A stretch of 52,185 bases of DNA from an uncultured Lachnospiraceae bacterium (lineage in GTDB: Bacteria; Bacillota; Clostridia; Lachnospirales; Lachnospiraceae), in the NCBI GenBank assembly GCA_946536155.1, contig CAMNEB010000002.1, forward strand, positions 1 to 52,185. Reading direction: 5' to 3'. Positions 6,170-22,976 of this stretch are shown piece by piece. The translations under genes and the position numbers were made by a program. The notes below the pieces were generated by a model. It worked only from the letters and a program-made list of their open reading frames with translations, searched no databases and was not told the DNA's origin. Numbering within the stretch: the first letter of the stretch is position 1; every line of letters begins with the position of its first letter.

Positions 6170-6919
6170 TTATTTAACGGTTGCGATGGTGGTATGAACC
6201 TGAGGTCCCTCATACCAGTACATGAAACCGGTGATGTCTACGGTATTTCCTACTTCAAAGCTCTCAACAGTCTTGTAAACATCGCTGTCAGCTCCCCTTA
6301 AATAGGACTCAACAACGAAAGTATAGGTATTTCCGTTTGCATCGTTAAGGTTGAAGTAAAGGTCTGAACCCTGCTCTCCGGATCCGTCCCATCCGTAGGT
6401 GAATGCTGCGCCGTCTCTGTCGGCAACGGTAAGTCCGGTGAAAGTAACATACTGGTTCATGTAAGCTGAAAGAGCATCATTGTCGCCGAGCTTGTCGGTA
6501 ACATCGGTTGCTGTTGCAACATAGGTATCTCCGGACTCGATCTCATACTTAGCGTCTACGATCTCAACTTCTCCTGACCACTCAGCCTTGTATCCGGTAA
6601 CCTTGATCTTGGTTCCGGGAACCATCAGATCGTAATCTTCCTTGCTGCAGGGCATGTTGTAAAGGAAGTATCCGCCCTCTTTGTCCTGGGTATAGAAGGT
6701 TGCGTTTCCTACGCCTTCATTCTCCCACCATCCCTGCTTGTCCTGAACATAGGTCTCGATGGTGACTTCGGTGTCAACATCGGCAGCCGCATAGTCAGCA
6801 TAAGTCATGACACCTTCAGACTTTGCATCCGCAGCGGGTGCCGCATCTGTCTGTCCGCCGCATGCAGAAAGTGAAGCGATGACTGCTGCTGCAGCGAAAA
6901 TTGCTGTAAATTTTTTCAT
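6170..6919 (-). CDS. Secreted lipoprotein of unknown function
   Basis: The start has a strong site (AGGAGG, 5 bases, ATG). A short signal peptide ends in the lipobox LSAC with Cys20 as the likely lipidated residue. After an Ala/Asp-rich linker, the body is two similar beta-rich units, each with phrases such as VTIETYVQDKQ or VTFTGLTV followed by aromatic and Gly-rich turns. This looks like a tandem OB-fold type extracellular domain. The mature protein is acidic and rich in Tyr, Trp and Gly. It has its own promoter (6987-7015), so it is probably expressed separately from the transporter operon upstream. No function is assigned. Confidence 0.75.
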   Translation of the reverse strand: MKKFTAIFAAAAVIASLSACGGQTDAAPAADAKSEGVMTYADYAAADVDTEVTIETYVQDKQGWWENEGVGNATFYTQDKEGGYFLYNMPCSKEDYDLMVPGTKIKVTGYKAEWSGEVEIVDAKYEIESGDTYVATATDVTDKLGDNDALSAYMNQYVTFTGLTVADRDGAAFTYGWDGSGEQGSDLYFNLNDANGNTYTFVVESYLRGADSDVYKTVESFEVGNTVDITGFMYWYEGPQVHTTIATVK

Positions 6920-7017: not shown

Positions 7018-8628
7018 TTATTCACCTTTGCCGCTTTTTTTTGCCTTAAGAACGTCCCGGAAATACACGATCCCCATGCATATCCAGGCGGCTGCGAGAC
7101 TGAGAAGAAGGATCACCGCGGTTTTCGGAAGAGGTCCGAGATCCCGGCTCCCCGCGTTCACTCTCTGCTCTCCGAGCCTGTACATCTGTGCCACATCCGA
7201 ATACATGCCCTGAAGATACTCATCATCGACCCTGCCTCCGCGTCTTACGGTCTTTACACAGTTTTCGACCATCTGACCCGCGGCGTTTCTGAGGGATGCA
7301 GACCCGTTAAAAACGGGTGTGATAAAGGTGTTGCCGATATTATCAAGTATCATCCTGACGCAGTCTATCTTTACCTGATAATGCTCACCGTTATCCTCAC
7401 CGCCCTTTGACAGATAGTCAAGGTATTCGGGATCGTTTAAAGCCTTGGTGGTCACGGGAACATAACCTTCTGTCTCCGAATAGCTTTCCTGCACTTTGTT
7501 TGTGAGAAGGAACTGTGCAAAGAGCCAGCTCGCAAGGACCTCCTGGGGGTCGTCCTTATTGAATATACATACGGAAGGACCCTGTGAGATCATCCTGATA
7601 TTTCCGGCATCATACTGGGGGACGGGGCGTACCACCGTTTCAAAATCCACCTTCTTGGAATCATGTATATCGGAAAGAGGGGCCCCCGATCCTATCCAGG
7701 TCGCACCCGCGGTGGAATCCACGGCGAGTATGCACTGTCCGGCATTCATAAAATTACCGGGATAGCTTGATATCTTGAATGTTGAGAAGGCTTTGGTCGC
7801 TCCGTGGGATGCGATCTCTTTTAATATCTGTCCGCATTTATCGTTGAAGATCAGGATATTTCCCTCATCATCCGAATATCCCGCATCCGCCTGCCTGAGC
7901 ATGGTGATGAGCATATTGTCGGTGGATTTATATATGAAGGGGATCATCACATCCTGTCCGTTTACCGCATATGTTCCGTCGGGATTCTGTGCAAGTGCGG
8001 CCTCGGATACCTCCCAGACCCAGTCCCATGTCGGAATATCGGGGATCTCATATCCCATGGCCTCAACATATGTCTTGTTGATATAGAGCGCCTCGGACGA
8101 CCTCATGAAGGGAAGTCCCATCAGATGGCCCGAAAGCTCAAGCTCGCCGAGATACTGCGGTACTATCTCGCCTGCAGAAGGCCCGTCAAAACGTATCTCG
8201 CTTCCGCCGAGTCCGTATTTTTCATCGTTTATGACATCATCGAGGCACACCACCTCTCCGGAACCCGTCATATAAGTTGCGATATGATCGGGATATGTGA
8301 TGCATACATTCGGTGTGGTATCGGTTGATATATTGGTTATGACATCGTTATAGATCGCCGAATAATCCGTATAGAGCTTCATGTTCACATCGACATTCGG
8401 ATACAGCGCTTCGAAATCTTCGACGCATTTTGCGTAGATCTCAGTCTGGGTCTTGTTTGTATCGTTCTTGGCCCAGAATACTATCTCTATATCCCTTGAA
8501 TCGTCAAAGCTTTCCGGCATCACAAAATCGCCACGGGCATTTCCGCCGTGGCATCCCGCAAGTCCCAGAGCCAGTGCCGAAAGGGAAAATGCCATCATAT
8601 GAGATTTGATTTTTTTCAGACTGATCAT
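7018..8628 (-). CDS. ABC sugar-type solute-binding lipoprotein with C-terminal membrane helix
   Basis: An extracellular binding protein of solute-binding family 1 (CUT1 type), 536 residues. A signal peptide ends at the lipobox LAGC with Cys26. The mature part begins with IEIVFWAKNDTNKTQTEI, the usual first strand and helix, and contains PQYLGELELSGHLMGLPF and TWDWVWEVSEAA typical of family 1. Unusually the C-terminus has a proline-marked stretch and then a strong hydrophobic helix (about 503-522) and a basic tail, predicting a second membrane anchor. It overlaps the permease stop by 4 bases and is the last gene of the operon that starts near 18.25 kb. The ligand is unknown; oligosaccharides or glycerophosphodiesters are possible from the family. 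Confidence 0.88.
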   Translation of the reverse strand: MISLKKIKSHMMAFSLSALALGLAGCHGGNARGDFVMPESFDDSRDIEIVFWAKNDTNKTQTEIYAKCVEDFEALYPNVDVNMKLYTDYSAIYNDVITNISTDTTPNVCITYPDHIATYMTGSGEVVCLDDVINDEKYGLGGSEIRFDGPSAGEIVPQYLGELELSGHLMGLPFMRSSEALYINKTYVEAMGYEIPDIPTWDWVWEVSEAALAQNPDGTYAVNGQDVMIPFIYKSTDNMLITMLRQADAGYSDDEGNILIFNDKCGQILKEIASHGATKAFSTFKISSYPGNFMNAGQCILAVDSTAGATWIGSGAPLSDIHDSKKVDFETVVRPVPQYDAGNIRMISQGPSVCIFNKDDPQEVLASWLFAQFLLTNKVQESYSETEGYVPVTTKALNDPEYLDYLSKGGEDNGEHYQVKIDCVRMILDNIGNTFITPVFNGSASLRNAAGQMVENCVKTVRRGGRVDDEYLQGMYSDVAQMYRLGEQRVNAGSRDLGPLPKTAVILLLSLAAAWICMGIVYFRDVLKAKKSGKGE

Positions 8629-9452
8629 CCCTTTGTTCCGCCTCTCGATACGCCTGCCATTATCTGTTTTCTGAATATAAGGAAAAGGATTATGAGCGGA
8701 AGTGAGATGACCACCACAGCCGCCATCATGGCGGGGATGTTCTCTCTTCCGAATCCGTTCTGTCTTATCTCCTGAATTCCGTTTGAAACGAGGAAATAGT
8801 TCTTGTCATCGGTGATGAGCCTGGGCCATACATATGAGTTCCAGCACTCTATGACCTTCAGGATGATGATAGTGACGACCGTGGGACGGCATATGGGAAG
8901 CATCACTCTGAACAGGTACTTAAGGTCGCTCGTTCCGTCAACCTTGGCGGCATAGTAGAGCTGGTCCGGAACCTGGGCAAAATTCTCTCTCAGCAGATAT
9001 ACATAAAAAACGCTCATGACGGACGGAAGGATCAGTCCGGTAAAGGTATTCCTCAGGTTCATATTCGTGATGGTGACAAAATTGGTGATGACTATCAGCT
9101 CGCTCGGTATCATCATCATGGAAAGGAATACCGTAAAGAGCAGATCCCTTCCCTTAAACTCGAGCCTTGAAAACGCAAATGCCGCAAGGGTTATGACAAT
9201 GACCATCACCGCGGTGGTGACTACGGTGAAGATCAGAGTGTTCAAAAGATACCGCCCGAGGGGAACCTGTGAAAAAGCCCCCGAATAGTTTGCGAATGTG
9301 GGATCCGTTACATAGAATTTAGGGATCTTCTCTCCGTTATAGGATGCATAGCTCTTAAAAGAGGTGAGCACCATCCAGTAGAAGGGAAACAGGACCATGA
9401 TCCCCCATATACTTAAGAATGCATATATGATGATCTTCTTAATCTTTTCCAT
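8625..9452 (-). CDS. ABC transporter permease, MalG/UgpE type
   Basis: A 275-residue inner membrane permease with six predicted helices. The cytoplasmic EAA loop that contacts the ATPase is visible as YYAAKVDGTSDLKYLFRVML. The C-terminus IMAGVSRGGTKG is typical of MalG-like subunits. It lies 8 bases after the partner permease and overlaps the binding-protein start by 4 bases. Together with the other permease it forms the membrane channel of a CUT1-family importer. Confidence 0.92.
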   Translation of the reverse strand: MEKIKKIIIYAFLSIWGIMVLFPFYWMVLTSFKSYASYNGEKIPKFYVTDPTFANYSGAFSQVPLGRYLLNTLIFTVVTTAVMVIVITLAAFAFSRLEFKGRDLLFTVFLSMMMIPSELIVITNFVTITNMNLRNTFTGLILPSVMSVFYVYLLRENFAQVPDQLYYAAKVDGTSDLKYLFRVMLPICRPTVVTIIILKVIECWNSYVWPRLITDDKNYFLVSNGIQEIRQNGFGRENIPAMMAAVVVISLPLIILFLIFRKQIMAGVSRGGTKG

Positions 9453-9460
9453 ATATCCAC

Positions 9461-10357
9461 CTACGAATAGAAAACATGTTTTTTGCTCACCAGGAGATTG
9501 ATGCTGGTTATGGTGAGGACGATGGCAAAGAGTATTATCGCTGCAGCCGAGGCAAAAGAAGGATATCCGCCGCTGTCCCCGTAGAGCATGTCATAGACAT
9601 ATCCGACTATTGTGTTCATGCCCGCGGCATTAAGATCCGTTCCGAACAGTGCGACGGCATCCGAATATTCCTTGAAAGCACCAATGAAGCCGGTGATGAC
9701 CAGGTAGAAGATCGTAGGGGATATCATCGGAAGTGTGATCCTGAAAAACACTCTCATGCTTCCGGTCCCGTCAACCCTGGCCGCATTGTAATAGGTCTTG
9801 TTGACAGAAGCCAGTGCGCTGGTGAGCAGAAGCACTTTAAAGGGAAGGACCACCCATATGATGTAGAAGCACATCACGAACATCTTGGCCCAGTACGGAC
9901 CGTCTATGAAGTCGACGCTCTTTCCGCCGAACATGGTGATCAGAAGGTTTACCAGTCCGTCCGAGTATGCGGTCTTTTTGAACAGGACCATGAAGACAAG
10001 TCCCACCGCAAGGGTGTTGGTGACGTAGGGAAGGAAATATATGGTCTGGAACAGCTCACGCACCTTTGTGACGGAGCTCAGCGCCAGAGAGATGAGCAGC
10101 GCAAATCCCGTAGACAGCGGCACCGTGATGATGACCATCAGGAATGTGTTCCTGACCGCCTGCAGAAAATACGTGTCATGTAGAACATATGAGAAATTAT
10201 AAAGGCCCGTTCCGCCGGATCTCTGGGATACGAAGTTGTATCCCTCTTCAAAGGAGTATACGAACACATCCAGCAGGGGGTAGACCATGAAAACGATCAT
10301 GAATATAAGTGCAGGCAGCAGATAGAGCCATGCTTTTATATTGTTCTTTTCAATCAT
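9461..10357 (-). CDS. ABC transporter permease, MalF/UgpA type
   Basis: A permease of about 298 residues starting MIEKNNIKAWLYLLPAL, with six hydrophobic helices. The EAA loop is YYNAARVDGTGSMRVFFRI. I take the ATG at 10357 as the start. An ATG at 10393 would overlap the FRG gene by 20 bases and lacks a ribosome-binding site, whereas 10357 follows GAGG and AAGG stretches. It sits 16 bases after the FRG-domain gene. It pairs with the following MalG-type subunit. Confidence 0.9.
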   Translation of the reverse strand: MIEKNNIKAWLYLLPALIFMIVFMVYPLLDVFVYSFEEGYNFVSQRSGGTGLYNFSYVLHDTYFLQAVRNTFLMVIITVPLSTGFALLISLALSSVTKVRELFQTIYFLPYVTNTLAVGLVFMVLFKKTAYSDGLVNLLITMFGGKSVDFIDGPYWAKMFVMCFYIIWVVLPFKVLLLTSALASVNKTYYNAARVDGTGSMRVFFRITLPMISPTIFYLVITGFIGAFKEYSDAVALFGTDLNAAGMNTIVGYVYDMLYGDSGGYPSFASAAAIILFAIVLTITSINLLVSKKHVFYS

Positions 10358-10373
10358 TGCCTTAACATCCTCA

Positions 10374-11144
10374 TCAGCGGGTACCGGCATCACCGTACTT
10401 GATGGTGCTCACCAGATCCTTGATCAACTGTGTATTCATAAAGAGCGAGTCTTCGGTAATATGCTTTTCGGCCAGCTCTTTGAGGATCTTTTTCTTATGC
10501 TCCGAAGAAATGACGATGGTGTCAAAAACATCCTTCTGATCTATTCCTTCTTTTTCAAGTATCTTCTCGAGGCTCATCTCGTCCCTGCCCCAGAGAAGGA
10601 ACAGGCCGCGCTGGGAATATATCCTGTCGAACTGCCTTGTGGCCTCGACAAAGATCGGCATATCCAGTCCGTCATCGCCGACCATCCTGGTATCGCTCTT
10701 ATCCACATAGTGCTGGAGCCATCTGTACAGATATTCGTTGCTCCTGACTATCTCGGCGCTGTTCTTTTTATGTTTTCTGAGGATCCACTCATATCTGCTC
10801 TTGTTGAAAACATATACCTTGCCGTCGTTCTCATAATATCTTCCCTTTGCGTCAAAGCAGGCAAAGAAAAGGCCGACTGTATAGGAATAGGAAAAATCCA
10901 GCATCCTGGTGGGAAGAGAAAAATGCTGAGCGATCTCGATACAGGTAAGTTCATCGTATCCGAAAACCTTCTTCATCTCGTCCACGAACCTGAACATCTG
11001 TGCATCAGCAGTCTGTATATGTGTTTCCCTGAGTCCGGAGGGGATCAGCACAAAATCACTGACGGGCTGACCTCTGAAGAGGATCACATCCCCTCTTCCT
11101 CCGAGAGCATCACAGAATTCATTGTATGATGTTATCTTATCCAT
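10374..11144 (-). CDS. FRG-domain protein
   Basis: A 256-residue soluble protein with the FRG signature near the N-terminus (LFRGQ, F23-Q26). The downstream family core is EIAQHFSLPTRMLDFSYSYT, followed by a small-residue helix (GLFFACFD). FRG domains are found alone or fused to many partners in bacteria and phages, and their biochemical activity is not established to my knowledge. There is no signal peptide and no membrane helix. The gene is wedged between the ABC ATPase (5-base gap) and the first permease (16-base gap), all on one strand, so it is almost certainly co-expressed with the transporter. No toxin, antitoxin or restriction gene adjoins it. Confidence 0.85.
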   Translation of the reverse strand: MDKITSYNEFCDALGGRGDVILFRGQPVSDFVLIPSGLRETHIQTADAQMFRFVDEMKKVFGYDELTCIEIAQHFSLPTRMLDFSYSYTVGLFFACFDAKGRYYENDGKVYVFNKSRYEWILRKHKKNSAEIVRSNEYLYRWLQHYVDKSDTRMVGDDGLDMPIFVEATRQFDRIYSQRGLFLLWGRDEMSLEKILEKEGIDQKDVFDTIVISSEHKKKILKELAEKHITEDSLFMNTQLIKDLVSTIKYGDAGTR

Positions 11145-11149
11145 ATCGT

Positions 11150-12250
11150 TTACTGCTTATCCGGCCTGATCCTTTCACCGGTCTCCGCATCAAAAACATG
11201 AACCTTTCCGGGTCTTAATCTGAATCTGACGGTCTTAATGCCTTCTTCGGGTCTTTCATCGGAATCTATTATCGATCTGACAACGGGTGCTTCGCATGCG
11301 GGATTTACAGACACTATACTGATATCCCTTCCCATGACCTCGACTCTGTCAAGTTCACATTTAAAGGGTCCCTGTGGATCGTAGATGAATCCCTCCGGTC
11401 TGATGCCGGCCTTGACGGGGCCGTCCTTTACTCCCGGGATATCGAGCACCGCATCATCGCCTATCATGAGCCTGCCCTTCTCGGCTCTTCCGTCAAATAC
11501 ATTAATGGCGGGGGTTCCGAGGAATTTTGCGACGAAGAGATTGACGGGATCATCATATACTTCCTGAGGTTTTCCGGACTGATGGAGCTCACCGTCCTTC
11601 ATTACGACAATGGTGTCGGAAATACTCATGGCCTCTTCCTGGTCATGGGTGACAAAAACGGTGGTGACTCCGGTCTCTTTCTGGATCCTGCGTATCTCCT
11701 CCCTGGTCTGAAGCCTCAGTCTCGCATCAAGGTTGGAAAGAGGTTCATCCATGAGAAGGAGTCTGGGAGTCTTTACAAGAGCCCTTGCGATGGCGACTCT
11801 CTGCTGCTGTCCTCCGGAGAGTTCTCCCGGTTTTCTGTCCATGAGCCTGTCTATCTGGACAAGCTTTGCGACCCTTTCCGCTCTCTCCTTCATGGCTTCC
11901 TTCGTCATCTTCTCCGCGCCTTTGAGATTGCCGAGAGGGAAGATTATGTTGTTGTACACGCTCATATGCGGGTAAAGTGCATAGTTCTGGAACACCATCC
12001 CCACGCCCCTGAGTTCCGGTGACACGTTTGTCACATCGTCCTCACCGAAAAAGATCTTTCCGGATGTGGGCTTTTCGAGACCGCATATCATATTGAGCAT
12101 GGTACTCTTTCCGCAGCCTGAAGGCCCGAGCAGCGCAACGAGCTTGCCGTCCGGTATCTCAAAGGAAAAGTTCTTTACTGCGGTGACCCCTTCACCCTTC
12201 CCGCCTCTCGGCGGGAATTGTTTGGTCAGTCCTTCCAATACAACTTTCAT
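11150..12250 (-). CDS. ABC transporter ATP-binding protein, MalK/UgpC type
   Basis: A 366-residue ATPase energising the importer encoded downstream. Walker A GPSGCGKST (42-50), Q-loop in MVFQNYALYPHMSV, signature LSGGQ (144-148), Walker B LLLMDEP (164-170) and H-loop His202 in FVTHDQEEA are all intact. The C-terminal third is a regulatory TOBE/OB domain (AGIRPEGF, then VEVMGRD), as in MalK, MsmX and UgpC. It begins 19 bases after tldE. Some Firmicute ATPases of this type serve several importers, but this one is embedded in a full transporter operon. Confidence 0.93.
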   Translation of the reverse strand: MKVVLEGLTKQFPPRGGKGEGVTAVKNFSFEIPDGKLVALLGPSGCGKSTMLNMICGLEKPTSGKIFFGEDDVTNVSPELRGVGMVFQNYALYPHMSVYNNIIFPLGNLKGAEKMTKEAMKERAERVAKLVQIDRLMDRKPGELSGGQQQRVAIARALVKTPRLLLMDEPLSNLDARLRLQTREEIRRIQKETGVTTVFVTHDQEEAMSISDTIVVMKDGELHQSGKPQEVYDDPVNLFVAKFLGTPAINVFDGRAEKGRLMIGDDAVLDIPGVKDGPVKAGIRPEGFIYDPQGPFKCELDRVEVMGRDISIVSVNPACEAPVVRSIIDSDERPEEGIKTVRFRLRPGKVHVFDAETGERIRPDKQ

Positions 12251-12269
12251 GTTTTTTCTCCAAAAAAGA

Positions 12270-13556
12270 TCATTCGGCTCCGGTCACGGTAACACCGGCA
12301 ATCCTTGTGTATGAGGGAATGATGGCACTGTCATAAAGGGTTCTTTCCCGGCTCATCTTCATATCTGATATGAGCTCTCTCAGATTTCCGGATACAGAGC
12401 CTCCGGTAACGGGTCTGACAGTTCCGTCAGCTTCATGAAGGTAAGCGAGTCTTATCTCTCCGAACATGTCGCCTGTCAGGGTATCAACCTGGAAATCGGA
12501 AAAGAACACGCACTCGAGGACCGGGCCTTTCAGCAGTTCTTCGGCGGAATAAGAGCCGCCTTCAACCTCATAATTTCCGACTATGAATGTGTCCTTTTCA
12601 TTCAGGTAATATGAGAATCTTGAGCTGCCGTGGAAGGAAACGGGAACGTTTTCCTCCATGAGAAGGGTATCCTTTATGGGACTGCCCTCTTCATCCGTGA
12701 CACGGTTGAGCGAAGATCCTTCAACGGATCTGAGCGCTCTTAATGTAACCTTGTCTCCCTTTACATCCTCTGCTATGGGCTCGCCTTTTTTGAACGGCGA
12801 ATATTTCATATAGATAAATGAAGTATCAAGACCGTCCTTGAATAATTCGTATATCCTGAGAGCATCCTCGCTGGAAAAGACAACATCGCACTTTTCGAGA
12901 TTCGGAGTGTTCTGAGCTCTGAGTCTTGCCCTTCCGTGCTCCATGGTCTTTCCGATATCGGCTTTGAGTGCCTCTTTCTGACATTCTCCGGAATCATAGA
13001 GTTTGTAGAATTCTATCTCATGATCACCGTTTTTGGCGTTTACCACCGTATCGAGCAGAGAAACAGGGTACTTTTCGGTAACGTCCGTTCCGGTGCTGGT
13101 AACGATCCTTCTCTCCACGGAGGAAACAAATATCTCATAGCTGTTCATATATGTCTCTTCCGTCTCGGGTATGGACTTGAAGGTATTGATAAAGTCAGCG
13201 GATATCGCATTCAGATCGATATCCCTGTCAGGGATCTCAAGGTCCTGCGCGGGAGCCTTCAGTTCATAGTATTTATCCTTTACGAGACCTGCCTGGAATA
13301 TAAGATCCTTTATCGTAAGCTCTATGTATTCCTTTGTTTCATCGGGGCCGACCTCTGCGGAGGCGCTTCCCACATACTCCCTGTCCTTGCTTGCGACAAA
13401 TACGGTGATCAGTATGTTCTCGAGGCTCTTTGATCTGTTCTGGTCAAGATCGTGCCTGATAAAATAGAATTCCCATCCTTTTTTGACGGTATCTGTGATC
13501 CTCCAGGCGTCAGCCCCGCTTTTTTTCAGTAATTCAATGATCTCATCTGTTTTCAT
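12270..13556 (-). CDS. TldE/PmbA-like subunit of the TldD/E metalloprotease
   Basis: A 428-residue protein of the PmbA/TldE family. It lacks the zinc-binding HExxxH helix, as expected for the non-catalytic partner. The C-terminal half has family-like beta segments such as FIVGNYEVEGGSYSAEELL and ends in IAGVTVTGAE. TldE with TldD forms a heterodimeric protease that degrades small unfolded peptides and matures some ribosomally made peptides. The start codon overlaps the tldD stop by one base (TAATG), giving tight coupling. Sequence divergence from enterobacterial PmbA appears high, so the family call rests mainly on its pairing and on C-terminal motifs. Confidence 0.8.
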   Translation of the reverse strand: MKTDEIIELLKKSGADAWRITDTVKKGWEFYFIRHDLDQNRSKSLENILITVFVASKDREYVGSASAEVGPDETKEYIELTIKDLIFQAGLVKDKYYELKAPAQDLEIPDRDIDLNAISADFINTFKSIPETEETYMNSYEIFVSSVERRIVTSTGTDVTEKYPVSLLDTVVNAKNGDHEIEFYKLYDSGECQKEALKADIGKTMEHGRARLRAQNTPNLEKCDVVFSSEDALRIYELFKDGLDTSFIYMKYSPFKKGEPIAEDVKGDKVTLRALRSVEGSSLNRVTDEEGSPIKDTLLMEENVPVSFHGSSRFSYYLNEKDTFIVGNYEVEGGSYSAEELLKGPVLECVFFSDFQVDTLTGDMFGEIRLAYLHEADGTVRPVTGGSVSGNLRELISDMKMSRERTLYDSAIIPSYTRIAGVTVTGAE

Positions 13557-14989
13557 TATCCGAGCCTCCCTCTGGTCTTAAGATACGGGCCGCCGTCGGC
13601 AACCTTGACCCACTCTTTATGTCCTTTTCCGCATCCGCCGCTTCCGAAGACTTCTCTGTCGGATGAACACATGGAAATACTGCCGAGAAGATCCGGAACA
13701 TATCCGGTCATGATGACAGGGGAAACAACTCTTCCGGTGAGCTTTCCGTCCTTTATCTCTCTGCCTTTCTGTATGATGCACTGTATTCCCCAGTGCTTGG
13801 GGTCTTCCATTCCGCTCTGCATTCCCTCAAGGAGGAATCCGTATTTGATGGAAGAGATCATCTCCTCTTTGGAATACGTGCCGGAATCAAACATCGTATT
13901 GGTCATACGTGTATAGACCTTGTGGGAGAAATTCTCCCTCTTTCCGTTTCCGGTGGGAACGGTTCCGAGTCTCTTTGCGGCAAGTGCATCGCAGATTCCG
14001 GTTTTGAGGATGCCGTTTTCGATCTCCGTGACATCTCCCGCCATGACGCCTTCGTCATCGAAGAAATAGCTGGTGACATCTTCGGCACAGAGCGCGCCTT
14101 CATGCATCGTGACATTGTCCGAAGCGACTCTCTTTCCGATATATTCTGCTCCGAGGGCACGGTTTTTGACGAACATATCCATCTCAACGCCGTGGCCGAA
14201 TGCCTCATGGGCGATGAGTCCGGTGACCTCGGGAGATGTTATGATGTCGTATTCTCCGGGCTCGATGGACTCTGCTCCGAGAAGCTCTGCGGCTCCGTTT
14301 ACCACATCGGGAAGGATCTCTTCCATCTCATCAAAAAGCTCGGGTCCCTTTATTCCGGATACGGATCTGTAATCTTCCTTTATTCTGCCATCGGATGCCA
14401 CAACCGCGGCAACGATCCCTTCGCTGTAGACATAGGACTGTCTGAGATCCCTGTTTTTTGTCAGGAACATCTTGCTGATGTGGGTTGACTGGGCGCGTGC
14501 TATGCACTCGATCATCTTGTCGTTCATAGCCATACCCTTGTCGGAGATGGCGGTAAGTTTGTTAACCAGGGTCTTAAGATCCGCCTCCTCGGGGAGCATG
14601 CCCGTTTCCTTCTGACCGAAGAATTCGCAGGGATCATCATCAAGGGGATCCGTCTCAAATACATTTGTCTCTGTGCTCTCAAGGAGTCTGTCCTGCATAG
14701 AGAGCTGGTCTCTTATCTCCTTTATCACAGCGGCGGTATCGTTCCAGTCTGCAGTATTCACCGCATACTCGCTGTATTTTCTGTTTTTGCAGACTCTTAT
14801 GACCACACCTCTTTCCGTGGTCATGGTCTTGTTGGATACGGTCTTGGCCTTGCTTCCGACCCTTATCATAAGACCCTTTGAATCAGTGCAGAGGGCACTG
14901 ACATAATCATGATCCGACGAAAGATCTTCGATCGCCTTTTTGACGGAAGGCGCGATCTGCGTCAGATATTCTGAAAATGGAGTTTTCAT
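13556..14989 (-). CDS. TldD-like metalloprotease catalytic subunit
   Basis: A 477-residue cytosolic protein with the family's zinc motif HEAFGH (261-266, HExxxH) in GLIAHEAFGHGVEMD. The C-terminal half has other family landmarks, including a FFDDEGVMAGDVTEIENGIL stretch and a Gly-rich segment near GSGGCGKGH. It should form the active subunit of the TldD/E peptidase with the next gene. It begins at an ATG overlapping the stop of the second licD gene by one base (TAATG). The location in a sugar-type transporter operon is unusual for a peptide protease. Confidence 0.9.
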   Translation of the reverse strand: MKTPFSEYLTQIAPSVKKAIEDLSSDHDYVSALCTDSKGLMIRVGSKAKTVSNKTMTTERGVVIRVCKNRKYSEYAVNTADWNDTAAVIKEIRDQLSMQDRLLESTETNVFETDPLDDDPCEFFGQKETGMLPEEADLKTLVNKLTAISDKGMAMNDKMIECIARAQSTHISKMFLTKNRDLRQSYVYSEGIVAAVVASDGRIKEDYRSVSGIKGPELFDEMEEILPDVVNGAAELLGAESIEPGEYDIITSPEVTGLIAHEAFGHGVEMDMFVKNRALGAEYIGKRVASDNVTMHEGALCAEDVTSYFFDDEGVMAGDVTEIENGILKTGICDALAAKRLGTVPTGNGKRENFSHKVYTRMTNTMFDSGTYSKEEMISSIKYGFLLEGMQSGMEDPKHWGIQCIIQKGREIKDGKLTGRVVSPVIMTGYVPDLLGSISMCSSDREVFGSGGCGKGHKEWVKVADGGPYLKTRGRLG

Positions 14990-16056
14990 TATTCCTGTTC
15001 CTTTCTGTATATTTGATCGAGGACCGTTTTCTTTTCCGGATCCTCATCATAGACATCCATTATGTAATATGCCGGCATGTCTTCGGCATATTCGGGATTT
15101 TTGATCACATGATCCCTGACCCATCTCTCCTGCTGCTTGTAATAAGGATATTCATGGGGCGAGGCATTCACGGGCTTCATATAGCCTTTTCCGTAATTGA
15201 TGGAAAGAACCTCATCATATCCCGCGGGAGCATATACGCTTCCCTTTTCGAAAGGGATCTCTATGCTCTTCGAAAAAGCCTTTTTGGGGAAGATCATATG
15301 GGGATGGCCGGTTGTCATGTGTGCCATGCATGCGACCATATCCGCATCCTTGCTCTTTGTGTAGGAAGACAGCCTGACGGCAAGGTCGTTGAGCTGGCGG
15401 AGGACATCTCCCCTTTTATCTATCTTCACGCCGGTCGCCCGGTAAATGGAATCGTATGCCTGATCCAGATCTATCCCCGCATAAGCGCCGTCCGGTATGC
15501 TGTATCTCTCCCAGTTAAGGCTCTTGTATCTGAAGCATACGCTGAGGATGAACTTGTTTATCTCTATGATCGTTCTGTACTCTTCGGAGTTGCGGGGGAC
15601 ATAGTCCATGGGATAGACATCGAGTCCCACGGTATAAGGGAAACGGTGGTGCGCATCAAGATACGGCGGGTTAAAGTCTGCCTTATGGATATTGTTGATC
15701 CTGGTGATCCCGAGTCCGTCGGTGTAGAAACCGTCCTCCGGATACTGCCTGTCATATGTCTCGACAAAATATCCCGGCATCTCCTTTGCGGCATACTGAA
15801 GGAAAAGATTGTAATCCCCCCTCAGCATGCATACATCCATATCATCATCCCAGGGGATGAAGCCTTTATGTCTGACGGCTCCGAGAAGAGTTCCGCAGAA
15901 AGCAAACCACTTCAGGGAGTGTCTCGAGCAGACGGCATCAAAATCCTCCAGCACCTGAAGCTGTGCTGCCCAGCATCTCTTCATGAGAGAATTGACTTTA
16001 AATCCGCATCTTTCCTCATCGGAATAGAATTGTTCATCTGTTTTAAAAGAGATCAT
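14989..16056 (-). CDS. LicD-family phosphotransferase, copy 2
   Basis: A 355-residue cytosolic protein with the LicD core near residues 45-80: LKWFAFCGTLLGAVRHKG, then IPWDDDMDVCM, whose Asp cluster is the proposed metal site. LicD enzymes belong to the nucleotidyltransferase fold and transfer phosphocholine or similar groups to surface glycans in pneumococcus and Haemophilus. The substrate here is unknown. It is a clear paralogue of the preceding gene, sharing long aligned stretches at both ends, including a similar N-terminal MKRCWAAQLQVLE and C-terminal ASPHEYPYY. It begins 9 bases after that gene and overlaps tldD by one base. Confidence 0.9.
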   Translation of the reverse strand: MISFKTDEQFYSDEERCGFKVNSLMKRCWAAQLQVLEDFDAVCSRHSLKWFAFCGTLLGAVRHKGFIPWDDDMDVCMLRGDYNLFLQYAAKEMPGYFVETYDRQYPEDGFYTDGLGITRINNIHKADFNPPYLDAHHRFPYTVGLDVYPMDYVPRNSEEYRTIIEINKFILSVCFRYKSLNWERYSIPDGAYAGIDLDQAYDSIYRATGVKIDKRGDVLRQLNDLAVRLSSYTKSKDADMVACMAHMTTGHPHMIFPKKAFSKSIEIPFEKGSVYAPAGYDEVLSINYGKGYMKPVNASPHEYPYYKQQERWVRDHVIKNPEYAEDMPAYYIMDVYDEDPEKKTVLDQIYRKEQE

Positions 16057-16065
16057 CTCTGCTCC

Positions 16066-17055
16066 TTAAAGGTATCTGTCGGCCCACTCATCCGGTATCT
16101 CGCCGGGGTGCTTTTCCATGTATTCCCTGACCACCTTCTGATGCGCGGAATAGTACGGATAATCATGAGGTGACGATCTGCGGGGGATGTAATAATTCTT
16201 CCCGTAGTTCCTGCCCAGGATCGTATCATACCCCGAAGGTATGCGGATATATCCGCTCTCAAAGGGGACCATGAAAACATCGTCAAAGCATTCCTTCGGG
16301 AACATCATGTGTTCGCCTTCAAACGTAAGATGTCCGATATTTGCGATATATCTGCTCTCCTCCGGAGTGTTCATTGAATCCGTAAGGTCCAGCAGGATGT
16401 TCAGCTGTCTGAGAATATCCCTGTCCGGATCGAATTCATATCCGGTGATCATGGATATCTGTGAGAGCACCTCCGAAGGCTCAAGCCTGTTACCGTCCCT
16501 GTCTGTAAGGGGGCCCGCTCCGTTCATTATCTTCCTGCACAGTTCCGTTGCCTGATAGATCCTGTAATGGAGATCCGTATGCGCCCTTCTCTCCTCTTCA
16601 TCTCCGACGACATAGTCGAGAGGATATATATCAAGGCCCGCAGGGAAAGGAAAACCGCAGAACTCCTCAGCTCTTTTCTCATTGAAGATGACACTGCGGG
16701 TATTGTTCAGCCTGGTGATGCAGTCATATTCATGAGTCGGTTCGTCGTAATTGATCAGCAGATAACCCTGCGGAAGCAGTGCCGGAGCCACTCTCAGGAA
16801 CTGCTCATAATCACTCCTCAGCATAGCGACATCCACATCGTCGTCCCAGGGAACAAAGCCCTTGTGCCTTACGGCACCGAGGAGCGTTCCGCAGAATGCG
16901 AACCATTTGAGGGAGTGAGCCTCGCAGATCCTGTCGAATACTTCAAGGACCTTAAGCTGCGCACCCCAGCATCTCTTCATGAGTCCCGGGACAGGAAAAT
17001 CATCGCGGACCTCATCCTGAAAGAAATCTTCATCTAGCTCAAAATGAACGGACAT
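16066..17055 (-). CDS. LicD-family phosphotransferase, copy 1
   Basis: A 329-residue paralogue of the next gene. The LicD core runs over residues 48-80 with LKWFAFCGTLLGAVRHKG and PWDDDVDVAM; the three consecutive Asp residues are intact. The N-terminus MKRCWGAQLKVLE and the C-terminal SSPHDYPYY recur in the partner, showing tandem duplication. The start overlaps the radical SAM stop by one base. With the choline-type cell-wall-binding lysozyme at 23-24.5 kb, phosphocholine or phosphoethanolamine decoration of a surface polymer is possible, but that is inference. Confidence 0.9.
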   Translation of the reverse strand: MSVHFELDEDFFQDEVRDDFPVPGLMKRCWGAQLKVLEVFDRICEAHSLKWFAFCGTLLGAVRHKGFVPWDDDVDVAMLRSDYEQFLRVAPALLPQGYLLINYDEPTHEYDCITRLNNTRSVIFNEKRAEEFCGFPFPAGLDIYPLDYVVGDEEERRAHTDLHYRIYQATELCRKIMNGAGPLTDRDGNRLEPSEVLSQISMITGYEFDPDRDILRQLNILLDLTDSMNTPEESRYIANIGHLTFEGEHMMFPKECFDDVFMVPFESGYIRIPSGYDTILGRNYGKNYYIPRRSSPHDYPYYSAHQKVVREYMEKHPGEIPDEWADRYL

Positions 17056-18032
17056 TAACTCCTCCAGTCAAAGATACTCACGTTACCGCACGACTTTTTA
17101 AGGGCTTCCTTCATAAAACCTTCCATACAGATCCTGACCTTTTCGGGATACTGATAATATCCGTCTTCACAGATATACGGATACTGCGCGATCAGAGAAT
17201 CCGGCATTTTCTTTCTCATATTCTTAAGGTACTGGTCGGAGATCCTGAAGGATCCTATGCTGATATCCTTTATCAGAGCGGTATCCAGGCTGCCTGCTAT
17301 CGTCTCAGCCAGCTGTCCGTAGATATCCCTCCAGTTCCTCACATAGATCATCGGATCGATGCACAGTCTGACGGGGAATCCCGCCTCCTGCGCGGCCGAT
17401 GCGGCTTTAAGCCTGGCAGCCGGTCCCGGAGCACCCTTTTCATATTTCAGAGCGATATCATCGGGCGAAAGAGTAAAGGCAAAGATCGCCCTGTCACTTA
17501 CGGGAAGTTTTGAATAGATGTCAGTCCTCGAGCACTTGGTTCGAAACTCCGCGCTCAGGTTCTCATGATCTCTGACTCTTTCGCACCACGCTGCGATAAA
17601 TCCCGTGATGTCCTCTATCGCGGTAAGGTCGGTATTGTACGAAGCACACACATATACGGGGAACTGACGCTCCAGATCTTCAAGCTCCGTAAAGGTCTCT
17701 TCAAGATCCGTAAAGATGCACATATCCTTTCCGGGATACATCCCCTTAAGAAAACAGTACTCGCAGTCATAGACGCAGTTCATCACTCCGGGAGAATAGT
17801 AGAAATGCTCATTTCCGAAGCTCTGGCATACCGGCGCGCCCTCATAGAGCCTTTTTCCGGGATTGTGCGCAAGGATCAGGTTCCTGCCTTCTTTTTTCCT
17901 GTCGAATATATCCTTGTAATGATCTATATAAACAGGCTCATCGCACCCGAGCCTTTTCAGGATGCCGAGAGTGACTCGATCGGATGCGGCTCTTTTCTCC
18001 ACATATATATTTTCAAAAAGCGCATGCGACAT
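17055..18032 (-). CDS. Spore-photoproduct-lyase-like radical SAM protein
   Basis: A 325-residue radical SAM protein. The cluster motif C86-x3-C90-x2-C93 sits in NCVYDCEYCFLKGMYP. It is preceded by IDHYKDIF, LILAHNPG and PVCQSFGNEHFYYS, which are hallmarks of spore photoproduct lyase (SplB) and its relatives. Cys129 in YVCASYNTD may correspond to the hydrogen-donor cysteine region, but the alignment is by eye. Classical SplB repairs the thymine dimer of spore DNA. Relatives in other species have unknown substrates. The start overlaps the 77-aa gene by 20 bases. Its place at the head of a licD/transporter operon does not suggest spore DNA repair by itself. Confidence 0.85.
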   Translation of the reverse strand: MSHALFENIYVEKRAASDRVTLGILKRLGCDEPVYIDHYKDIFDRKKEGRNLILAHNPGKRLYEGAPVCQSFGNEHFYYSPGVMNCVYDCEYCFLKGMYPGKDMCIFTDLEETFTELEDLERQFPVYVCASYNTDLTAIEDITGFIAAWCERVRDHENLSAEFRTKCSRTDIYSKLPVSDRAIFAFTLSPDDIALKYEKGAPGPAARLKAASAAQEAGFPVRLCIDPMIYVRNWRDIYGQLAETIAGSLDTALIKDISIGSFRISDQYLKNMRKKMPDSLIAQYPYICEDGYYQYPEKVRICMEGFMKEALKKSCGNVSIFDWRS

Positions 18033-18246
18033 TATCGTATATCTCCGCCAGAGCCTTTTTCGATCCGTTTTTGTCGGTGCAGGGGAGCACCCCCTTGTCG
18101 ATCAGTTCCTTCCTGATGCTCTCCATATCTATCCCCGCGATATCCGCATAAATGCATATCTGTCTGAGCCGGTTTTTCATGGAAAAACTCAGCTCCATTT
18201 CTGAGGATAAGATATCAAATATTTCCGTGTTTTTAATTTCGCCCAT
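18013..18246 (-). CDS. Small 77-aa protein upstream of the SPL-like gene
   Basis: A small protein predicted to be mostly helical (IFDILSSEMELSFSMKNRLR, then a KELIDKG turn). It has no recognised domain. A promoter with consensus-like boxes ends 10 bases before its start codon, so it is the first gene of the operon, and its last 20 bases overlap the radical SAM gene. In Bacillus the lyase splB is preceded by splA, a regulator of similar size. I see no clear sequence match to SplA, so the parallel is positional only. The gene is judged real from promoter, overlap and amino acid composition. Confidence 0.6.
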   Translation of the reverse strand: MGEIKNTEIFDILSSEMELSFSMKNRLRQICIYADIAGIDMESIRKELIDKGVLPCTDKNGSKKALAEIYDNVACAF

Positions 18247-18256
18247 AATCTGTTTA

Positions 18257-18285
18257 AGTATACCTTTTTTAAAAATCCCCTACAA
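18257..18285 (-). promoter_or_regulatory. Promoter of the radical SAM/licD/tldDE/ABC operon
   Basis: Minus strand: TTGTAG (18280-18285), a 17-base spacer and TATACT (18257-18262). It is the only good promoter pair seen before the compact block of genes that ends at 7018. The transcript start would lie within a few bases of the first ATG, implying a very short leader. Confidence 0.55.
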
Positions 18286-19971: not shown

Positions 19972-21258
19972 ATGAAGATAAAGACCGTAAAACTCTCATA
20001 CGAAGAGGTCATGGCCCTTCCCCGCCCGAAGGTCCGCAGTCCCCGGAAGCCCTCTCCCTTTCTCAGGCTCCTCGTAAAAACCCTTGCTTCGGGAGAACTG
20101 AAAAAGGCGGACTTTACGGTAAACGAAGGCGATATGAAAGGCATCCCGTCAGGCAGGAGCATTCTCTATCTCATGAACCATTCCTGTTTTACGGATCTGA
20201 TGATAGCCTCGCACGTCATCAAAGAACCCTACAGCATCGTCAGCACGACGGATGCGATGGTCGGAAAACAGGCGCTCATGAGAGCCGTCGGATGCATCCC
20301 CACCAGAAAATTCCAGCCGGATATCAGGCTGATCAGGGACATATCCTATTCCCTCGATACCCTGGGGTGTTCCGTCCTCATGTACCCGGAGGCGGGATAC
20401 TCTTTTGACGGGACCACCACCACGCTTCCCGAATCTCTCGGAAAGCTGATCAAGGTACTCGGTCACCCCGTGGTGATGATACGGTCACACGGAGCATTCC
20501 TTCACGATCCTCTCTATAACGGACTGAGGCTCAGGAAATGCAGGATATCCGCGGACAAATACACCCTCTTTACGGAGGAAGAACTGGGCACCCTGTCTGT
20601 TCCGGATATAAACAGACGTATAGGCGAAGCTTTTTCTTTTGACAATCTGAAGGAACAGTTCGAAACGGGAACAAAGATCACGGAGCCTTTCCGTGCCGAG
20701 GGTCTTTCAAGAGTGCTCTATAAATGTCCGGTATGCGGATGCGAAGGAAAAATGCACGCCTCAGGCATAAGCCTTAAATGCGGCGCCTGTGAGGCATCAT
20801 GGGATCTTACGGAGCTGGGAAAAATGGAATTTAAGGGAAGCGCCGAAGGCCCCCTTGCGGCTCCCGTCATGTTCGATCATATCCCGGACTGGTTTGCATG
20901 GGAGCGGAGCTGTGTGAGAAAAGAACTGGAAGATAAAACATACTCTCTCGATGTCCCAGTACATATCTGTATGATAGTCGACAACAAAGCCTTTTATGAT
21001 GTGGGGGACGGAAGGCTCACCCACTCTCTGTCAGGCTTTCACCTGACAGGATGTGACGGAAAGCTTGATTTTCTGCAGAAGCCACTGGCTTCATACAGCG
21101 TCAATTCGGATTATTTTTTCTATGAGATCGGCGATATGATCTCCATAGGAGACAACGATAAACTCTTTTACTGTTTTCCGCCGCAGGATACGGACGTGGT
21201 CGCCAAAACCCGTCTTGCAGCGGAGGAACTCTATAAGATGCGTAAAGGCAGGCTTTAA
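19972..21258 (+). CDS. PlsC-like acyltransferase with C-terminal zinc ribbon
   Basis: A 428-residue protein. The first 200 residues form a lysophospholipid acyltransferase-like domain: NHSCFTD matches NHx4D, and MYPEAGYSFDG occupies the position of the substrate-binding EGTR motif. Around residue 250 follows a zinc ribbon (CPVC and CGAC pairs about 20 residues apart) and a C-terminal domain of about 150 residues that I do not recognise. Normal PlsC proteins are about 240 residues and lack the ribbon. It probably acylates a membrane lipid or related alcohol. The stop overlaps the convergent GGDEF gene by 4 bases. Confidence 0.82.
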   Translation: MKIKTVKLSYEEVMALPRPKVRSPRKPSPFLRLLVKTLASGELKKADFTVNEGDMKGIPSGRSILYLMNHSCFTDLMIASHVIKEPYSIVSTTDAMVGKQALMRAVGCIPTRKFQPDIRLIRDISYSLDTLGCSVLMYPEAGYSFDGTTTTLPESLGKLIKVLGHPVVMIRSHGAFLHDPLYNGLRLRKCRISADKYTLFTEEELGTLSVPDINRRIGEAFSFDNLKEQFETGTKITEPFRAEGLSRVLYKCPVCGCEGKMHASGISLKCGACEASWDLTELGKMEFKGSAEGPLAAPVMFDHIPDWFAWERSCVRKELEDKTYSLDVPVHICMIVDNKAFYDVGDGRLTHSLSGFHLTGCDGKLDFLQKPLASYSVNSDYFFYEIGDMISIGDNDKLFYCFPPQDTDVVAKTRLAAEELYKMRKGRL

Positions 21259-22976
21259 CGGCCTGCCTTCATTTCTTTCTTCATTTCATACATTCTGTTA
21301 TCCGCGATCCTGAGTCCGTCCCTTACTGATGCAGCGGTGCCCTCCTTAGAATCATAGACCCCGTATGCAGTGCTCATCGTAAGCCCCGAATGCCCCGTAT
21401 CCCTGCCGGAGAGTATCGCGTTCAGGTCCCTGAGCTTTTCGTCCAGCCACTGTCTGTCCCTGTCTTCTTCCGGCAGCATTACCAGCACGAACTCGTCACC
21501 GCCGGTCCTTGCCATATATCCCTTTCCTTCGAAGACCAGCTTCAGAGTCTCCGCAAACTGCACGATGTATCTGTCTCCCTGGTCATGTCCGTAGGTATCG
21601 TTTGCCTTCTTCAGGTAGTTTAAGTCAAACTGGACCAGCACATAACGCGAACCGGAATAATCAACCTCGTCGTAATAATTCTCGGCGGACTGTCTGTTGT
21701 AGAATCCCGTGAGCGGATCGGTAAATGCGAGCTTTGAGATGATGCCGAGCCTCTCTTCTTCCCTTGCGTCATTGATCGCACCGCTCATGTAGTCAAAGAA
21801 CAGCGACAGGACGAAGAATATCATCACCACGTAAATGGTGTTCATGGAAAAACCGGCGCCGCCGTTGGGCGAAAAATAATACAGATAATTGAATCTGACA
21901 AGATCGATCATCGCGGCTATTCCGGTAAAGAGAGTTGCGTAGGTGGAGATCCTGCGCCTTCCCTGACCCTTTTTAAGATCGATGATGCGGGTGCCCACAA
22001 CAAGGATGAGTGTCACGGCATCGAGAGCGTGCGAAACGGACAGATGTGCCCTGAGGCTCTGGCCGTTTATCATATGCTGATGGAGATTGAGAAGGAAGAA
22101 CAGCGCACATGCCACCCACGCCATTCCGAATATGACATTCCTTGTGGCGATCCTGTCACTTTTGTCATTTTCAAAATGATATCCGACAAAAAATACGGGG
22201 ATCAGATAGAAGGCAAAATATTTGATCTCAGACTTGAGGATGATATCCTCCATGAAGATCTCGGTAAGATCCATCTCTCCCATGATCCAGATGCCGAGTG
22301 CTATGGCAAAGAGCGCAAGGTTACCCAGCCTGAAGATATCGATGGGTGAATAGGTCCTTCTGAATTCAAGAGCCACGGTGGTAAGTGCCATGGAGCATCC
22401 GACCACTATAAAGAAAAATGCAAGGGCAAGGTACCATATCCTGTCTGCCGCATAGTCCTGACGGAAGGTTGAAGCCCTCCATATCTCGGGACTGTCTATG
22501 GACGAAAAGGCATTGTCCTCTCCCGCCCTCATCACAATGGACAGCTTCCTTCCGCCGCTTCCGGGGCCGGGCATCACGGTATAGAATCCGTTTCCCAGCG
22601 GCTGTCCCGTTGCATACCTTGCGGTATCTTCCCTGAATATCTCCTCACCGTCTATATACACGATCACGTCGGTATAGTGAAGATGCACCAGAATGGTGGA
22701 ATCATCGGACATATTTTCCGGAAGGATGCAGTTAAGAGTGATCCTGTCACCCTTTCTGATATTCCTGAAAGTGAAGGTCCTGAGGTCTATGCCGGAGTAC
22801 CTCTCGGAGTTGACGACAACATCCCATCCGTAGTTCAGAACGGTCTTCGGGGCCGCGTTTTTTCCCATTCTCGCAAACAGCCAGACTGTAAAGACAACGC
22901 AGCTCAAGCACAGGAGTCCGATGAACATAACTCCGAACAGCAGAAGTATCTTGTTTATGCCAACCTTATTTTTCAT
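21255..22976 (-). CDS. Membrane diguanylate cyclase (7TM sensor + GGDEF)
   Basis: A 573-residue protein predicted to make cyclic di-GMP. After an N-terminal helix (about 10-35) comes an extracellular beta-rich region of about 140 residues, then about seven helices, a layout like 7TMR-DISM sensors. The C-terminal GGDEF domain has the exact GGDEF motif at 492-496 and the upstream DPLTGFYNR signature. No RxxD inhibitory site is seen at the usual place five residues before the motif, so product inhibition through that site is not expected. It is transcribed towards the acyltransferase gene, with ends overlapping by 4 bases. Confidence 0.9.
   Translation of the reverse strand: MKNKVGINKILLLFGVMFIGLLCLSCVVFTVWLFARMGKNAAPKTVLNYGWDVVVNSERYSGIDLRTFTFRNIRKGDRITLNCILPENMSDDSTILVHLHYTDVIVYIDGEEIFREDTARYATGQPLGNGFYTVMPGPGSGGRKLSIVMRAGEDNAFSSIDSPEIWRASTFRQDYAADRIWYLALAFFFIVVGCSMALTTVALEFRRTYSPIDIFRLGNLALFAIALGIWIMGEMDLTEIFMEDIILKSEIKYFAFYLIPVFFVGYHFENDKSDRIATRNVIFGMAWVACALFFLLNLHQHMINGQSLRAHLSVSHALDAVTLILVVGTRIIDLKKGQGRRRISTYATLFTGIAAMIDLVRFNYLYYFSPNGGAGFSMNTIYVVMIFFVLSLFFDYMSGAINDAREEERLGIISKLAFTDPLTGFYNRQSAENYYDEVDYSGSRYVLVQFDLNYLKKANDTYGHDQGDRYIVQFAETLKLVFEGKGYMARTGGDEFVLVMLPEEDRDRQWLDEKLRDLNAILSGRDTGHSGLTMSTAYGVYDSKEGTAASVRDGLRIADNRMYEMKKEMKAGR

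Follow-up and report, generated by a model that had tools for sequence, protein, structure and literature searches.

Does a compact row of eleven genes in an uncultured Lachnospiraceae bacterium serve a single pathway, or does it bring separate functions together in one transcript? The row runs on the minus strand from position 18246 to 7018 of a 52,185-nucleotide (nt) stretch of contig CAMNEB010000002.1 (assembly GCA_946536155.1), which is here called the window. In gene order, it encodes a protein of 77 amino acids (aa), a radical SAM protein resembling spore photoproduct lyase (SPL), two LicD proteins, TldD, TldE, the ATPase of an ATP-binding cassette (ABC) importer, an FRG-domain protein, two permeases, and a binding protein. 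A preliminary description had read this set as one system, in which a group imported by the ABC transporter is transferred to a surface polymer by LicD, with TldD/TldE or the radical SAM protein processing a peptide or lipid part. Our comparison with related genomes showed that the operon is genuine and conserved, but that this one-pathway reading is wrong. The operon is very probably a join of two units, a rear importer unit and a set of front genes, and its surprising feature is the recurrent association of the importer with an FRG gene or, in other genomes, a DUF2971 gene.

Gene order within and beyond the genus

We searched 97 genomes, 31 of which belong to the window's own genus within the Lachnospiraceae, together with 14 control genomes. 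The window's own genome is 83% complete and the assemblies of its relatives are also incomplete; gene order in the genus was established by combining tblastn with a table of open reading frames (ORFs). The operon order was found in 16 of the 31 genus genomes, the window's own included, with ten showing the whole operon on one contig and six showing it in consistent pieces. It is therefore not unique to one strain, and the condition on order by which the preliminary description would have been refuted does not apply. An FRG gene was embedded in the operon in 16/31 genomes, the 15 outside the window being 83-88% identical to that of the window, and its slot between the ATPase and permease genes was kept in all 16 loci. 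The radical SAM gene accompanied it in 15 of these 16 genomes and was found in none of the other 15; in the sixteenth operon genome (G018), the contig ends within LicD. Named contigs of the genus carry Lachnospiraceae in their titles; many come from rumen or omasum, and AC2028 and P6A3 are among them.

The genes of the operon differed in how closely they matched the window (averages after dropping pieces shorter than 80% of gene length). For the importer genes, mean identity was 91-92% for the permeases (range within the genus 88-92% for permease 1 and 90-94% for permease 2), 84% for the ATPase, 84% for FRG, 79% for the binding protein, and ∼60% for a lipoprotein gene that follows the operon. 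For the front genes it was 80% for TldD, 70% for TldE, 64-70% for LicD, 67% for the radical SAM protein, and 61% for the 77-aa ORF.

A scan of genome contigs with the FRG alignment, which looked for two short peptide patterns, returned 30 loci. Fifteen of these matched the genus (FRG 82-87% identical), and the other 15, mostly Lachnospiraceae, were more distant (FRG 64-68%), being titled Lachnospiraceae, Acetatifactor sp., Firmicutes, 'bacterium', or 'Mollicutes bacterium' and apparently belonging to other genera. These distant loci (L123-L137) were read with an ORF picker plus tblastn for the front genes, and a further series (L151-L181) with the ORF picker, which takes frames from contig ends and sometimes reports a longer start or an overlapping opposite frame (e.g. 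L110, L117, L156, L168-L170). The distant loci carried the importer genes, and FRG occupied its usual position among them. In contrast to this constant core, no radical SAM, LicD, TldD, or TldE gene was detected by tblastn in the fetched DNA of any of the 15, of which 13 extend 1 kb or more upstream and several lie on short contigs, so that the front genes look like an attachment made in one genus. In two distant loci (L127 and L135), no ATPase gene preceded FRG in the DNA seen, and FRG thus keeps with the permeases even then. The lipoprotein gene stood downstream of the binding protein gene in 9 of the 11 distant loci showing the place (it was not seen in L131 and L137) and in 13 of 13 such genus loci, and was present in 30 of the 31 genus genomes. 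The embedded form is rare, since an order-wide search (E 1e-20) found it in 3 of 392 genomes, all of the genus and including the window's own.

The rear unit, then, is ATPase-FRG-permease-permease-binding protein, usually followed by the lipoprotein gene, and it is kept as a block in the genus and in the 15 distant loci. The front unit combines the SPL-like radical SAM gene and its partner domain with TldD/TldE and an optional LicD cassette, and it was seen attached to the importer only in this genus. The importer also occurs without an embedded FRG in other genomes, including G036 and G086, and in three genus members that lack the operon (G002, G010, and G019), TldD was located on other contigs than the importer.

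These data bear directly on the single pathway proposed earlier. One conserved, compact operon is what such a pathway would produce, and a GH25 lysozyme-like protein with choline-binding repeats, encoded at 23009-24505 of the window, hints that choline may matter at the cell surface. However, the LicD genes (LicD 1 at 16066..17055, PF04991 112.5 bits; LicD 2 at 14989..16056, 120.1 bits) proved to be optional: between the radical SAM gene and TldD we counted 0, 1, 2, or 3 copies in 7, 1, 5, and 2 of 15 genus genomes, respectively. In five of the seven operons without LicD at the locus, no LicD match was found anywhere in the (incomplete) genome. Choline kinase (PF01633) scored above its cut-off in one of the 31 genus genomes and was unmatched in the window's own, 83% complete genome, where other kinase families were not searched; this result from incomplete assemblies is no help to a phosphocholine pathway. 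With LicD absent from 7/15 operons and the core standing without front genes in 15/15 distant loci, the claim that the importer feeds LicD and TldD/TldE or the radical SAM protein did not hold up, and we consider a single pathway very unlikely. What stood of the preliminary description was the conserved, probably co-transcribed set itself; the link of FRG and DUF2971 to the importer, the lipoprotein gene, and the origin of the 77-aa ORF had escaped it.

FRG and DUF2971 genes beside the importer

The embedded FRG gene occupies 10374..11144, and its product matched PF08867 with 51.1 bits (cut-off 25), the FRG, QH, TRxLD, and QxG residues being invariant in 19 aligned proteins. To our knowledge, neither FRG nor DUF2971 proteins have an established function. 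FRG genes were scarce in our sample, occurring once each in 30 of the 97 genomes and in none of the 14 control genomes. Of the 31 genus genomes, 21 have FRG and 11 have DUF2971; together the two families covered all 31, with both found only in G002. One or the other was located inside (16 genomes) or beside (11 genomes) the importer or its lipoprotein gene in 27/31 genus genomes. In all ten strong genus cases, DUF2971 adjoined the lipoprotein gene of the importer; in G007 and G029, the contig with DUF2971 holds only a fragment of the binding protein gene.

FRG genes were also found near the importer in other positions. In G036, another FRG gene precedes the ATPase gene at a distance of 15 nt, while in G086 and G021 an FRG gene adjoins the lipoprotein gene, the pair sitting 7.4 kb beyond the binding protein gene in G021. 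Among themselves, the G086, G021, and G024 FRG proteins share 63-75% identity, whereas the G036 protein is only 26-28% identical to these, and neither the G036 nor the G086/G021 proteins match the embedded FRG more than weakly. At least two FRG-importer links therefore look independent. We counted the G086/G021 pair as one event, G036 as a second, and the embedded FRG as a third. Under random placement, the chance of finding three of the seven non-embedded FRG genes near the importer was 3e-5 to 3e-4, or 1.5e-3 to 6e-3 when the pair was counted once (two of six); these are rough estimates for a span of 25-40 kb in 1.9-2.5 Mb, computed after the pattern had been seen. As a genomic fact, the tie of FRG and DUF2971 to the importer is well supported for the embedded form and moderately supported for the other forms. 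None of the open-access literature matches listed, as far as their accessible text goes, describes an FRG-importer link.

The close company of these genes could also be that of a guard with its charge. Under this main rival explanation, FRG and DUF2971 would be abortive-infection effectors encoded next to an importer exposed at the cell surface, which phages might use for attachment or hit as a membrane target; a disturbance of the importer would trigger them. Both families adjoin the same importer and both match putative defence candidates in PADLOC, FRG matching PDC-S15 (best E 4.6e-30) and DUF2971 matching PDC-S31; moreover, Frg is proposed as an antiviral effector in PMC9503650. Most PDC families, however, lack experimental validation, according to PMC12988326, and no obvious defence genes were noticed by eye among the neighbours, where no scan aimed at defence genes was made. 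In addition, the embedded FRG has been inherited stably and evolves slowly, unlike what we would expect of a defence gene: its identity within the genus (82-87%) exceeds the mean values for the binding protein, TldD, TldE, the radical SAM protein, and LicD. This slow evolution and the fixed place of the gene speak for a housekeeping role, and we regard a guarded importer as unlikely.

A possible role for FRG in importer control

Taken together, the position and conservation of FRG suggest that it probably works with the importer in some way. How it might do so is a more tentative matter. In the reading that we favour, though with restrained confidence, the operon comprises two units and FRG would be an NAD+-consuming regulator of the importer. 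The importer would take up a sugar-like or glycerophosphodiester-like solute, and FRG, whose family has been proposed to belong to the ADP-ribosyltransferase (ART) superfamily, would set or shut off its activity. The step on which most depends, regulation by NAD+ chemistry, is conceivable but doubtful when taken by itself; it draws on the description of Frg as an ART superfamily member and possible NADase in PMC9503650. Synthesis of FRG may be coupled to that of the permeases, because the FRG stop codon overlaps the permease start or sits close to it. Evolutionary distances of FRG tracked those of the ATPase, permeases, and binding protein in 25 chosen taxa (r 0.88-0.98), and FRG and the permease start overlapped by 4 nt in 10 of 16 loci, a combination that leads us to favour a regulator produced together with the permeases. 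Where FRG is missing, DUF2971 may fill its role. The broader idea that one importer is served by exchangeable NAD+-using partners, either FRG proteins of separate subfamilies or DUF2971, in a regulatory or sentinel capacity, seems rather unlikely. The front genes would share the transcript yet probably act separately from the importer, with TldD/TldE acting on unfolded peptides, the radical SAM protein on a nucleic acid or nucleoside substrate, and LicD on surface polymers.

Several observations weigh against regulation by FRG, or against reading much into its association with the importer. FRG was not beside the importer in the fetched DNA of G002, G010, and G019, and in G024 it could not be placed; among the 64 sampled genomes without the importer, seven have FRG and 11 have DUF2971. 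No homology between FRG and DUF2971 was detectable (hhalign probability 5.6). In an importer tree of 43 taxa, which leaves out G007, G024, G030, L124, L132, and L108-L122 (repeats of genus genomes), the embedded-FRG group formed one branch with a support of 0.72, so FRG probably entered the operon once, and the DUF2971 group (9 taxa) formed one branch with full support. DUF2971 therefore counts as one event, the complementarity of the two families does not amount to 31 independent facts, and their exchange could be a coincidence of clades. Any genes that are linked and inherited vertically would be expected to show correlated distances, and the matches to defence-candidate profiles suit a guard. 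Structure offered little further guidance: the AlphaFold model of FRG (19 sequences) had a predicted local distance difference test score (pLDDT) of 42, too poor to judge the fold, and no PDB sequence match was found for the FRG profile up to E 5 or for the DUF2971 profile.

If the broader idea of exchangeable NAD+-using partners were true, part of the current phage-defence candidates would be importer control. A conserved importer operon carrying FRG or DUF2971 gives these proteins a defined partner, and it cautions that defence calls based on one gene may pick up metabolic regulators.

The importer and its lipoprotein

The importer core begins with the gene for a MalK/UgpC-like ABC ATPase (11150..12250; PF00005 (ABC_tran) 132.9 bits), in which Walker A, LSGGQ, and Walker B are all present and the score for the MalK OB domain does not reach the cut-off. 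After FRG come the CUT1 permease 1 (9461..10357) and permease 2 (8625..9452), both matching PF00528 (BPD_transp_1), and the binding protein (7018..8628; PF13416 (SBP_bac_8) 83.4 bits). Pfam matches above the cut-offs for the ATPase, both permeases, and the binding protein identify a CUT1 importer. The binding protein combines a lipobox-like start with a hydrophobic C-terminal helix, an arrangement that the well-studied binding proteins of CUT1 importers are not known to have; the hydrophobic tail was present in 23 of 25 relatives, and the other two were incomplete. The lipoprotein gene that goes with the importer (6170..6919, minus strand) starts 98 nt downstream of the binding protein gene in the window. 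The gene set between 7018 and 18246 described earlier was thus real but stopped one gene short.

An orthologue of the importer permease (73-92% identical) was found in 30 of the 31 genus genomes; in the one exception (G022), a contig end cuts the locus. Outside the genus it was found in G036, from the same family, and in G086, from another family, and in no other of the 97 genomes (E 1e-60). In the absence of an embedded FRG, the order ATPase-permease-permease-binding protein-lipoprotein was kept where contigs allow, sometimes with an extra gene before the lipoprotein gene. On one contig of G010 (L152:4735-18396), two divergently placed copies of the importer permeases were present. Several loci of the DUF2971 group (L159-L162, L164, L167, L180) encode a ∼715-aa protein between the binding protein and lipoprotein genes, with an EAL domain by Pfam in L161. 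Before the ATPase gene, L159-L164 and L167 encode a ∼746-aa protein, with a weak cNMP-binding match, below the cut-off, in L161. The two proteins are signalling-type neighbours of the importer.

What the importer carries bears on another explanation, in which FRG would process the imported compound itself, for example an NAD+-like or ADP-ribose-like nucleotide or a phosphodiester. In one distant locus (L135:9426-10756), a Nudix gene abuts the FRG gene, in an importer operon in which no ATPase gene was seen. This neighbour suits ADP-ribose chemistry, be it in such processing or in the proposed regulation by FRG, but it is a single case. The best-scoring named NCBIfam models for the importer subunits were those of the glycerol-3-phosphate Ugp system, but all scores were below the cut-offs (UgpB 31.9/411, UgpE 106.8/297, UgpA 85/335, and UgpC 345.7/432 bits). 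The AlphaFold model of the binding protein (16 sequences, pLDDT 48) was too poor to judge the ligand, which counts against substrate processing and importer regulation alike. Close importers also exist without an embedded FRG, and processing of the substrate by FRG strikes us as improbable.

The front genes

The SPL-like radical SAM protein (17055..18032) matched PF20903 with 52.3 bits (cut-off 27), and its cysteines C86, C90, and C93 (CxxxCxxC) were invariant in 16 aligned sequences. It had PDB matches to spore photoproduct lyase (best E 4.9e-6), and it scored 63.4 bits with the SPL equivalog model, for which the cut-off is 400. In a weak alignment, the position of the SPL cysteine that we take to be catalytic falls on an invariant tyrosine (Tyr132), and the subfamily has an invariant cysteine of its own three residues before Tyr132.

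The 77-aa ORF (18013..18246) had no Pfam match. Its alignment matched that of nucleosidase-like (PNP_UDP_1) proteins in hhalign with a probability of 94.3 and an E of 1e-7, which makes it a stand-alone relative of the C-terminal ∼65 aa of these proteins. The proteins that it matched are 274-324 aa long and are encoded upstream of the radical SAM gene in other genera. A small ORF directly before a radical SAM gene could have been the precursor of a ribosomally synthesized and post-translationally modified peptide (RiPP), modified by the radical SAM protein and trimmed by TldD/TldE, which elsewhere trims unfolded peptides such as RiPP leaders (PMC10885120). Because the ORF matches a domain of a larger protein, it does not qualify as such a precursor; this identity is largely refuted, and we consider a RiPP cluster extremely improbable.

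Outside the genus (L036, L037, L038, L040, and L042), we observed a row of nucleosidase-like (PNP_UDP_1), SPL-like radical SAM, and SDR genes, assigned by Pfam on L036 only, that possibly serves nucleoside or lesion chemistry. In another locus (L035:7445-9892), the genes for 8-oxoguanine DNA glycosylase, a 212-aa protein, and an SPL-like radical SAM protein stand in a row and form a candidate set for DNA repair; the 212-aa protein, which has no Pfam match, resembles the 77-aa ORF at its end.

TldD (13556..14989; PF19289 (PmbA_TldD_3rd) 156.6 bits) is the catalytic subunit and carries HEAFGH (HExxxH), while its divergent partner TldE (12270..13556; PF19289 46.8 bits) is without this motif. TldD had a single match in the window's own genome (G000). 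In the G003 assembly (L105/L115), the reading frame of TldE is broken, through either an error or a real loss.

Layout and transcription of the operon

The eleven ORFs between 18246 and 7018 were all intact, on one strand, and in tight succession, as the preliminary description had it, and the ten larger ones were each assigned a Pfam family above its own cut-off. The TAATG couplings that it reported at the radical SAM/LicD 1, LicD 2/TldD, and TldD/TldE junctions were also present. Most junctions were as described, with two exceptions. The 77-aa ORF overlaps the radical SAM gene by 20 nt rather than 1-4 nt, an overlap that was identical in all 15 genus loci showing both genes. Permease 1 had been called from a GTG (10393), a possible start that would overlap FRG by 20 nt; relatives use the next ATG (10357), which leaves a gap of 16 nt.

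By their spacing, the eleven genes are probably co-transcribed. The single promoter placed earlier near 18.27 kb has a candidate in TTGTAG-17-TATACT at 18285/18262, a weak match that falls below the pass mark of the consensus scan, in which promoter-like sites in the window were at shuffle level (21 vs 18.4). Terminator-like sites numbered 20, vs 11.5 in shuffles; within the operon, every such site on the coding strand lies inside a gene. A search of the window for RNA elements found two tRNAs only, and no riboswitch or other RNA. Some 3 kb beyond the operon start, a GGDEF-domain protein is encoded on the minus strand at 21255-22976.

Comparison with known systems

Each part of the operon has known relatives from which it departs in some respect. 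The SPL-like protein shares PF20903 and the radical SAM cysteines with spore photoproduct lyase, but it lies far below the equivalog cut-off and is probably without the catalytic cysteine. TldD and TldE have the adjacent genes and the HExxxH motif in TldD only that mark the TldD/TldE (M103) peptidases, and here they stand in one gene row with an importer. The LicD proteins share PF04991 with LicD phosphocholine transferases, but here they are optional, with no choline kinase match in the window's genome; a search of the open-access literature returned nothing on LicD together with TldD. As in the CUT1 importers MalEFGK and UgpABCE, the rear unit consists of a binding protein, two BPD_transp_1 permeases, and a MalK/UgpC-like ATPase; it differs from them in its embedded FRG gene, the extra hydrophobic C-terminal helix of the binding protein, and the downstream lipoprotein gene. 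Finally, the FRG protein resembles FRG-domain proteins and PADLOC PDC-S15 in its PF08867 match, its invariant hallmark residues, and its match to the PDC-S15 profile, but here its gene is a stable member of an importer operon instead of a lone gene.

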